The notes under the pieces: generated by a model | Seen by the model: the letters and a program-made list of their open reading frames with translations, nothing else | Told to the model about the DNA's origin: nothing | Database searches by the model: none | Shown here: in pieces, positions 59,956 through 63,232 of the stretch | How the letters are laid out: every line of letters begins with the position of its first letter | How positions within the stretch are numbered: the first letter of the stretch is position 1 | Made by a program: the position numbers and the translations under genes | Assembly (NCBI GenBank): GCA_029565675.1 | Contig: JAKQNP010000032.1 | Span: forward strand, 186,001-250,000 | Reading direction: 5' to 3' | DNA: 64,000 nucleotides | Source: a bacterium | Lineage (GTDB): Bacteria > Zhuqueibacterota > Zhuqueibacteria > Residuimicrobiales > Oceaniaggregativiventaceae

Positions 59956-60426
59956 TTAGCTGATCTCGGTGACCCGATATCGCAAAATTCCGACAGGCAC
60001 TTTAATTTCCACAATTTCGCCGATCGCTTTGCCGACCAACGCTTTGCCGACCAGCGAGTCGACGGATACCGCTTCCAGATCGTTGCTCAAAAATTCAGCC
60101 GATGGCACCACTTCGTAAACGATCTCTTCATTCCTTTCGATGTCGACGAGTTTGACTTTCCGTCCGACATGCACCCGATCGAAAGAAATCTGATCGCTTT
60201 CGATGACTCGCGACCGTGACAACATTTCTTCCAATCGATTGATTTTCCTCTCCACCAAAACTTGCTTTTCTTTGGCGGCCGCATATTCCGCATTTTCGCG
60301 CAAATCCCCGTGTTCGCGAGCCTCGGCAATAGCCGAGATGATTTGGGGTCGCTCTGTATACTTTAATTGATGAAGTTCAGCATGCAGTTTATCGTGCTGT
60401 TCCTGAGAAATATAGACCGGCTTCAT
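59956..60426 (-). CDS. greA: Transcript cleavage factor GreA
   Basis: Rescues backtracked RNA polymerase by stimulating transcript cleavage. It has 156 residues: N-terminal coiled coil (about 1-75) with AREHGDLRENAEYAAAKE, whose acidic tip (D and E in HGDLRENAEY) coordinates the catalytic Mg, then the globular domain with GRKVKLVDIERNEE and the end GKAIGEIVEIKVPVGILRYRV in parts. The ATG at 60426 has AGGAG nine bases upstream; an ATG two codons earlier is only three bases from it. The frame remains open far upstream by chance. A promoter and terminator in its leader are listed separately. Confidence 0.95.
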   Translation of the reverse strand: MKPVYISQEQHDKLHAELHQLKYTERPQIISAIAEAREHGDLRENAEYAAAKEKQVLVERKINRLEEMLSRSRVIESDQISFDRVHVGRKVKLVDIERNEEIVYEVVPSAEFLSNDLEAVSVDSLVGKALVGKAIGEIVEIKVPVGILRYRVTEIS

Positions 60427-60569
60427 TTCCATTTGCTCCTGTTGGTTATCGCTTGATTCTGCCCGAAAGCAGAGTCGTAAAAAAATAGAAAAGTGAAAAC
60501 ATTGATGACCGCTGTGTTGCCAAATATGACTTTGGAGAAACTGCTCATCTGAGCAGATGCGAATGGATA

Positions 60570-60616
60570 AAAAAAGGCAAACCGAATTGAAACGAGCTTT
60601 CAATTCGGTTTGCTTT
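60570..60616 (-). ncRNA. Promoter-proximal terminator / short leader RNA upstream of greA
   Basis: GCAAACCGAATTGAAA (60577-60592) pairs perfectly with TTTCAATTCGGTTTGC (60598-60613), a 16-bp stem with a five-base loop, extendable by three weaker pairs. Read leftward it ends in CTTTTTTT. The predicted start of the promoter at 60620-60648 is 60613, the first base of the stem, so the main product would be an RNA of about 44 nt. Read-through would enter greA 144 bases further on. No coding gene upstream on this strand needs a terminator here. Confidence 0.65.
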
Positions 60617-60619
60617 AAC

Positions 60620-60648
60620 AAACTAAGCAAAAAGACGGTATTTGTCAA
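60620..60648 (-). promoter_or_regulatory. Consensus-like promoter upstream of greA
   Basis: Minus-strand -35 TTGACA (60648-60643), exact 17-nt spacer, -10 TAGTTT (60625-60620). The +1 position falls at 60613. Confidence 0.6.
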
Positions 60649-60973: not shown

Positions 60974-61498
60974 ATGAAACGCAAACTGATCGTCATCACC
61001 ACCGGCGGCACCATCGAAAAAAGTTATGATGAGGTAAGCGGCACTCTGAGCAACCGTGGCTCGGTTCTCTTTAAACTGCTCAAGCGGCTCCGACTTCCAG
61101 ATCTGGAAGTCCTGCATCGCGATCTTTTCTGCAAAGATTCGCTCGATATGACAGACAAGGACAGACAAATGATCTTGCTGGCGTTGGAAAATGCTTTGGC
61201 AGACCGCTTGCCGATCATTATTTTGCACGGAACCGATACCATGGCCATCACGGCGCAATATCTGTATGATCATCTGCCTGAGTTGGCTGTACCTGTGGTG
61301 ATGACCGGAGCGATGAAACCTTTTGGCTTTGAAGATTCGGATGCTTTGCAGAATTTTACTGAAGCGTTGGCGGTGGCTTTTTTGCTCTCTCCCGGGGTTT
61401 ATATTTCCATGCACTGTCAGGTCCACCCTTTGCCAGGTGTGAGAAAGAACCGCGATCGAGGCACCTTTGAATCCGGCCGGGACATCGAATCCAGCTGA
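60974..61498 (+). CDS. Single-domain L-asparaginase-like protein
   Basis: A 174-residue protein matching only the N-terminal domain of type I/II L-asparaginase. The nucleophile Thr13 lies in TTGGTIEKS. The second catalytic set is T87-D88 in ILHGTDTM, and the lysine K115 lies in MTGAMKPFGFE. The C-terminal domain, which completes the active site of classical tetrameric enzymes, is absent, and the protein ends normally at TGA with no continuing frame nearby. Similar short forms exist as independent families, so this is likely a natural small enzyme and not a truncation, but its substrate is uncertain. Confidence 0.82.
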   Translation: MKRKLIVITTGGTIEKSYDEVSGTLSNRGSVLFKLLKRLRLPDLEVLHRDLFCKDSLDMTDKDRQMILLALENALADRLPIIILHGTDTMAITAQYLYDHLPELAVPVVMTGAMKPFGFEDSDALQNFTEALAVAFLLSPGVYISMHCQVHPLPGVRKNRDRGTFESGRDIESS

Positions 61499-61731: not shown

Positions 61732-61780
61732 TGTTGTTTCGTATCGGGCGAAACCCGGCAATTTTTTTCAGGAGGTGATC

Positions 61781-63232
61781 ATGTCCGTGTTGCAGAACCT
61801 CAAACCCAAGCTCTTGTGGAAATACTTTGACGAAATCCGCAAAATTCCCCGTGCTTCGGGAAAAGAAGAAAAGATCGGTGAATATGTGATTTCGGTGGCA
61901 AAAAAACTTGGCCTGAGTTATCAAAAGGATAAAGTTGGCAATATCTTGATCCGCAAACCCGGTTCTGCAGGCCATGAGAAAGCGCCGGTGGTTATCTTGC
62001 AGGGCCATCTGGATATGGTATGCGAAAAAAATTCGAACAAAAAGTTCGATTTCGACAAGGATCCAATCGAGGTGGTGATCGACGGCGAGTGGCTGAAAGC
62101 CGATGGCACCACTCTTGGAGCAGACAATGGTGTCGGGGTTGCCGCAGCGCTGGCGATTCTTGAGGACAAATCCCTGGTGCACGGACCGATCGAAGCCATC
62201 TTTACGATTGACGAAGAGCGCGGTCTGGTCGGTGCAATGAACCTTTCCAAGAAATGGCTGACCGGTCGTACGCTGATCAACCTGGACAGCGAAGATCTCG
62301 GCGTTTTTTCCATCGGCTGTGCCGGCGGTGCGGATTCACACATCCATTTGCCGGTCCGCTTTCAGAAAGCGAAAGGCGATACGGTCCTGGAGATTCAAAT
62401 CAGCGGTTTGCGCGGTGGCCACTCTGGAATCGATATCCAGGAAGGCCGCGGCAACGCCTTGAAAATCCTTAACCGCCTGCTCTACCAGATGAGTCAGATT
62501 GTGCCTTTCGAACTGGCCTGTTTGGAAGGCGGCGATAAACACAACGCCATCCCGCGCGAAGCCAAAGTCCGCATCGTGTTGGACAAGCAACGAGTGAATG
62601 CCGTCAAGAAATGGATCAGCAAAGCGAGCAAGGACATTCAAATCGAGTTCAATCCAGTAGAACAGAACATCCAAATTTCGGTTAAAGCGGTCAAAGGCGA
62701 TGTGCCCAAAGTCATGCCCGGCACGGTTCAGAACAAGCTGATGGCTTTGCTTTTTGCGTTGCCGCACGGCCCATTGGCGATGAGCCGCAGCATTAAAGGC
62801 CTGGTCGAAACCTCCAACAACGTTGCATCGGTCAAATGCGTGAACAATGAAATTCGGATTCATCTCAGCAGCCGAAGCTCCAATATGGCTGCTTTGAAAG
62901 CGACTCGCGACAAGCTCGCAGCGATCGCCGGCATGGCACCCGCGACCATTGACCAACCTGATGGTTATCCGGGTTGGATGCCCAATCTCGAATCTGATGT
63001 GCTCAAAGTCGCCCTTAACACCTACAAGCAAGTAACCGGCAAAACGGCCAAATATGAAGCCATCCATGCCGGTCTTGAGTGCGGGCTGATCGGGGAAAAA
63101 TTTCCGGGCATGGATATGATTTCCATTGGTCCTACCCTGAAACACCCCCATTCTCCAGATGAACGCGTGCACATCGAATCGGTGAACATTTTCTACAAAC
63201 ATGTTTTAAAAATTTTGGAAGCCCTCGCCTAA
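61781..63232 (+). CDS. pepD: Aminoacyl-histidine dipeptidase PepD
   Basis: Cytosolic zinc dipeptidase of family M20 that cleaves Xaa-His and other dipeptides. It has 483 residues. Metal-site residues are H76 and D78 (QGHLDMV), D115 (GADNGVG), E145/E146 (DEERGL) and D169 (NLDSED); a final His is in IHAGLECG. The lid domain (about 190-390) includes LRGGHSGIDIQEGRGNA. The ATG at 61781 follows GGAGG at five bases; a GTG inside the Shine-Dalgarno sequence was rejected. It would digest peptides imported by the POT transporter. A terminator follows at 63246-63281. Confidence 0.95.
   Translation: MSVLQNLKPKLLWKYFDEIRKIPRASGKEEKIGEYVISVAKKLGLSYQKDKVGNILIRKPGSAGHEKAPVVILQGHLDMVCEKNSNKKFDFDKDPIEVVIDGEWLKADGTTLGADNGVGVAAALAILEDKSLVHGPIEAIFTIDEERGLVGAMNLSKKWLTGRTLINLDSEDLGVFSIGCAGGADSHIHLPVRFQKAKGDTVLEIQISGLRGGHSGIDIQEGRGNALKILNRLLYQMSQIVPFELACLEGGDKHNAIPREAKVRIVLDKQRVNAVKKWISKASKDIQIEFNPVEQNIQISVKAVKGDVPKVMPGTVQNKLMALLFALPHGPLAMSRSIKGLVETSNNVASVKCVNNEIRIHLSSRSSNMAALKATRDKLAAIAGMAPATIDQPDGYPGWMPNLESDVLKVALNTYKQVTGKTAKYEAIHAGLECGLIGEKFPGMDMISIGPTLKHPHSPDERVHIESVNIFYKHVLKILEALA

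Follow-up and report, generated by a model that had tools for sequence, protein, structure and literature searches.

The closest described counterpart of the element analyzed here is the leader of enterobacterial greA with its GraL RNAs (RF01769). In Escherichia coli about one third of the transcripts read through the terminator in the greA leader, and GreA lowers this read-through only if it is catalytically active; the D41A variant fails to do so (PMC6829880). For this feedback the promoter is replaceable and Nus factors are without effect, and a swap of the hairpin arms that keeps the pairing abolishes most of it (PMC6829880). A literature search that was carried out mostly without subscription journals found this type of greA leader described in enterobacteria alone.

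We analyzed a window of 64,000 nucleotides, meaning the whole stretch of DNA at positions 186001-250000 of contig C42. It belongs to a genome of 4.43 Mb whose nearest relatives are MAGs of the candidate division KSB1. The greA of the window encodes the sole GreA, a factor that rescues RNA polymerase, found in this genome (a single match). Its translation, read from the ATG at 60426 (MKP...), contains the catalytic-loop residues D41 and E44. This start was preferred over the ATG at 60432, as it agrees better with the starts in relatives and with the position of AGGAG. A longer GreA that reads through the hairpin was rejected: the frame is open in the window (292-aa ORF) and runs into stops in several relatives. 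The features of the locus are listed in Table 1.

Table 1. Features of the greA locus in the window
Feature	Position	Strand	Basis
-35 element TTGACA	60643..60648	-	sequence; CTTGAC invariant in 17 aligned relatives
-10 element TAGTTT, 17 nt from -35	60620..60625	-	TAGYTT/TACAAT, spacing exactly 17 nt throughout the aligned relatives
terminator hairpin, 16 perfect pairs and 5-nt loop	60577..60613	-	folding z -8.1; 10/16 pairs with double changes
T7 tract, predicted RNA 3' end ~60569	60569..60575	-	sequence; T run after hairpin in every aligned relative
read-through part of greA leader, AGGAG ribosome binding site near its end	60427..60568	-	sequence without conservation (18% mean identity)
greA coding sequence	59956..60426	-	TIGR01462 above cut-off
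asparaginase-like gene	60974-61498	+	points away from greA
dipeptidase gene	61775-63232	+	points away from greA

A first-pass annotation had described a TTGACA box and a TAGTTT box 17 nt apart, followed by a perfect 16-bp hairpin that begins at the predicted +1 (60613) and ends in seven T. Sequence and folding confirmed this arrangement. Six bases lie between the -10 box and the hairpin, whose first base is the predicted +1. The core of the stem is CAAACCG/CGGTTTG, and one C (60576) separates the stem from the T tract, which is 143 nt upstream of the greA start codon. The predicted leader RNA of ~45 nt has a folding energy of -23.0 kcal/mol compared with -5.9 in shuffles (z = -8.1). A 5-kb scan listed the hairpin first among its terminator-like sites and showed all 16 pairs as formed; it qualifies as a strong intrinsic terminator. 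Since TAGTTT agrees with the E. coli -10 consensus at three of six positions, a generic promoter scan made no call at the greA promoter. Despite this poor match the assignment of the -10 element is settled, because all aligned relatives have TAGYTT or TACAAT at a spacing of exactly 17 nt from TTGAC.

The absence of a same-strand gene upstream, also noted earlier, held: the asparaginase-like and the dipeptidase gene, which are the real genes on that side in the window, both read the opposite way, so there is no gene on this strand for the hairpin to terminate. The match of the asparaginase-like protein to TIGR00519 covers just the first half of the model. Many genomes of the order of uncultured KSB1 bacteria to which this genome belongs encode such a single-domain protein, ~170-215 aa long, divergently to greA (loci L011-L014, L016, L020-L022 and L024).

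Conservation of the element was analyzed by seeking greA in 60 relatives and a further contig collection; the leaders were oriented and scanned. Every greA found in the order, except that of genome G003, carries the promoter-hairpin unit. These leaders have the layout GATTTTnCTTGAC-N17-TAGYTT-N4-8-hairpin-T run, and the distance to the start codon is 33-160 nt. None of the 17 aligned copies departs from a spacer of exactly 17 nt. Two genomes that belong to one genus have TACAAT at the place of the -10 box, which identifies the site as a -10 element. The hairpin of the aligned relatives starts 4-8 nt after the -10 box and within ~3 nt of the predicted +1. In L014 and L024 the computed placement of the hairpin is caught by a copy of the 3' arm that lies farther downstream. 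These two loci, which belong to one genus, have a third copy of ATTCGGTTTG just after the T run of the greA leader, and this copy could pair with the 5' arm instead.

The mean pairwise identity was 62% for the element and 64% for the greA coding sequence; for the flanks it was 18% (leader after the element) and 24% (100 nt before the element). The conservation of the element is not a matter of mere recency, since the GreA proteins of the set are 55-81% identical to that of the window. Most relatives have a divergent gene upstream of greA; in a few the neighbour is co-directional and lspA-like or SDR-like (named from sequence alone). As the unit is kept with divergent and co-directional neighbours alike, the terminator belongs to the transcript of greA itself.

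Following the suggestion of the first-pass annotation, the leaders of relatives were aligned for covariation, and the pairing of the stem proved to be conserved with covarying bases. The analysis comprised an alignment of 17 sequences with a helix of 16 pairs, 500 shuffles and controls in which the partners were slid by 1-3 columns. Standard pairs occupy 95.6% of the helix cells, and changes on both sides are found in 10/16 stem pairs. None of the 500 shuffles reached the covariation score, and in the slid controls pairing dropped to 25-51%. The core CAAACCG/CGGTTTG consists of six pairs that never vary and one that varies once. The inner stem and the loop are variable in sequence and length, with a core-to-core span of ~31-47 nt. 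Covariation together with the invariant core indicates a constraint on RNA pairing next to the U tract and, for the base of the stem, one on the sequence as well. The element is thus conserved as an RNA structure, and it is tied to greA.

A covariance model (R1) was searched against 22 genomes of the order, and sites with E < 1e-8 were regarded as strong. A single strong site was present in 19 of the 22 genomes, in each case adjoining greA. No greA was found in two incomplete genomes, G005 (78% complete) and G021 (73%). In G003 the match at greA was weak (E 0.1) and the hairpin has diverged; this genome keeps the promoter and has another hairpin with a T run, of changed sequence, in the leader. 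A pattern of stem core plus T4 matched at greA alone, and the reversed-pattern control gave no match. Whole-genome searches by DNA, covariance model and pattern found no second convincing copy; a dispersed repeat or an uptake-sequence-like terminator was therefore rejected. Among 82 genomes of the rest of the phylum the covariance model gave no convincing match. One hit in G029 (E 0.004) was rejected as a sign of spread beyond the order, as it is an end-of-gene terminator without a promoter. This terminator, AACCGAATGGGC...GCCCATTCGGTTTTTTT, resembles the greA stem and is located at ~1718-1802 of locus L150 (G029:C15:36217-36301).

Compared with GraL, the KSB1 leader shares the gene, a sigma-70-type promoter and an early intrinsic terminator, which follows the promoter within ~60 nt upstream of greA. 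The predicted RNA is of similar length (37-59 nt in E. coli, ~45 nt in KSB1), the start of greA lies ~100 nt further on, and the upstream gene is divergent (dacB in E. coli). In contrast, E. coli GraL has ~18 nt before the hairpin and two promoters, whereas in KSB1 the hairpin begins at ~+1 and one promoter is seen. The unpaired 5' segment of ~18 nt that contributes to feedback in E. coli thus has no equivalent here. The stem cores are unrelated, with no sequence or Rfam match between the two. The RF01769 covariance model, which E. coli greA matches at 4.4e-24, gave no match in the window at the gathering score and none in L119 and L125 at E 0.1; the KSB1 leader is therefore not a member of this family. 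Furthermore, no Rfam family was detected in the window or in the sampled relatives. Attenuators of biosynthetic operons, riboswitches and T-boxes also terminate early in the 5' leader through an intrinsic terminator. They differ in that the KSB1 hairpin starts at +1 and so cannot be preceded by an antiterminator, aptamer or leader peptide.

Judged from the sequence comparisons, the element is probably (roughly 0.8) a cis-acting attenuator of greA, in which read-through alone would give full greA mRNA. Transcription would start at ~60613 from the promoter at 60648-60620, and the first ~37 nt of the transcript would fold into the hairpin, followed by the U tract. Most polymerases are expected to release a hairpin RNA of ~45 nt, and greA mRNA would come from the read-through polymerases alone. 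With the hairpin at the very 5' end, the RNA offers no space ahead of it for an antiterminator or alternative fold, a leader peptide, a riboswitch aptamer or a Rho site. With nothing fitting upstream of the hairpin, the read-through fraction would be set by the terminator, the polymerase and polymerase-bound factors. Points against an attenuator are the lack of the standard hairpin sequence in G003, the poor agreement of the -10 box with that of E. coli, and the invariance of the stem core, which exceeds the needs of a simple terminator.

By analogy with the E. coli greA leader, GreA itself is likely to be the effector. Complexes that have backtracked at the U tract would be brought back by GreA into the register for termination, and high GreA would thereby lower read-through. 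We put feedback by GreA on this leader just short of an even chance; the conserved arm sequence of KSB1 fits the result of the E. coli arm swap. An independently built GraL-like leader that yields an RNA of about 44 nt and limits greA had already been proposed. The structural part of this proposal stood and gains a conserved covarying stem, uniqueness to greA and the lack of a match to the greA leader of Rfam; the short RNA, the extent to which greA is limited and the feedback by GreA are kept as predictions by analogy with the E. coli experiments (PMC6829880). In sum the leader appears to be a real, conserved and greA-specific attenuator for which feedback by GreA is plausible.

The same attenuator without feedback, that is a fixed read-through that sets a constant low level of greA, differs from the best explanation in the last step alone. 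Nothing in the sequence demands a sensor, no alternative fold is possible upstream of +1, and a defined in vitro system did not reproduce the E. coli feedback (PMC6829880). Against this, a weaker promoter could give the same fixed ratio. Additionally, the CAAACCG arm is constant beyond pairing, and the E. coli feedback needs the arm sequence. We regard a fixed read-through as a serious possibility, somewhat below even odds.

The remaining explanations are far less probable. The inverted repeat might be a DNA operator for a regulator overlapping the start site, with the RNA hairpin incidental, as CAAACCGAAT/ATTCGGTTTG, the outer half-sites, hardly vary and overlap +1. This is very unlikely: the variable core-to-core span keeps no constant helical phase, the inner stem pairs covary, conservation extends to the T tract on the side of greA and the genome has no convincing second site. 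The strength of the hairpin as an intrinsic terminator would also suit an ordinary end-of-gene or insulating terminator against transcription from upstream. In the window and in most relatives, however, the neighbouring gene upstream reads divergently, and the hairpin follows the greA promoter with almost no change in spacing. The terminator therefore acts on the transcript of greA itself, and we give this explanation very little credit. A complete promoter-RNA-terminator unit could also be a stand-alone gene beside greA with a trans-acting small RNA as its main product, and E. coli GraL acts in trans on nudE too (PMC6829880). Here the loop and the inner stem, which would have to pair with any target, are variable, and the unit lies 33-160 nt from greA in every genome and was not found elsewhere; a main role in trans thus seems most improbable.

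Leader terminators were also found at greA in other groups. Within the same class, further greA leaders (L029, L031, L034 and L035) have a promoter-like site and, after ~30-70 nt, an unrelated hairpin with a T run. The short greA leaders of another family of the class showed no promoter-like site with hairpin in the leader scan. In a mixed set of 84 greA loci, a leader terminator was present on the sense strand in 13 and on the other strand in two. The respective figures were 22/27 and 0/27 in Bacteroidales (L155-L183, e.g. L164, L165, L171 and L175), and 20/27, with varied sequence, and 3/27 in Desulfobacterales (L185-L211). In the Desulfobacterales locus L185 the terminator immediately follows a TTGACA-type promoter.

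As a control, other Bacteroidales genes were analyzed that have 90 nt or more free upstream; a terminator was found in 9/48 with a co-directional neighbour and 0/48 with a divergent one, compared with 13/16 for greA. TAnnTTTG is the -7 element of Bacteroidota. Of the 22 Bacteroidales cases, 11 had this box no more than 45 nt upstream of the hairpin, where shuffles predict 1.1, and in four of the 11 the distance was 2-8 nt. Some of these hairpins could end an upstream gene, as the neighbour is co-directional; the position of the promoter makes this less likely. We regard these leaders as a strong lead that falls short of proof. The tested Bacteroidales leaders had no RF01769 match. Many hairpins of this order share GAGTYCC...GGGATTCTTT.

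The strong over-representation of leader terminators before greA in Bacteroidales and Desulfobacterales points to an architecture that recurs and is specific to this gene. An early-termination brake on greA seems to have arisen in bacteria more than once, since E. coli has the same arrangement with an unrelated sequence. That a whole order of a distant phylum keeps a leader of this design with unrelated sequence suggests, together with the similar leaders of Bacteroidales, that early termination is a general solution for greA. More tentatively, and rather to be doubted than expected, the greA-leader terminator, often at or near +1, may be an independently evolved device in several phyla in which termination itself is the sensor of GreA. 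In that case the polymerase making greA mRNA would be tested for GreA occupancy while pausing on the U tract, and no ligand, aptamer or repressor would be involved. The KSB1 version is the most reduced form, consisting of promoter, hairpin at +1 and U tract, and it reduces the question of GreA feedback on its own gene to a template of ~90 bp.

Finally, four greA loci of Gemmatimonadota (L104, L105, L107 and L118) have a GC-rich hairpin, CGCCGCCCC...GGGGCGGCGG, 60-170 nt before greA. It contains one mismatch in L105 and is followed by a T run in three of the loci and by a poorer one in L118.
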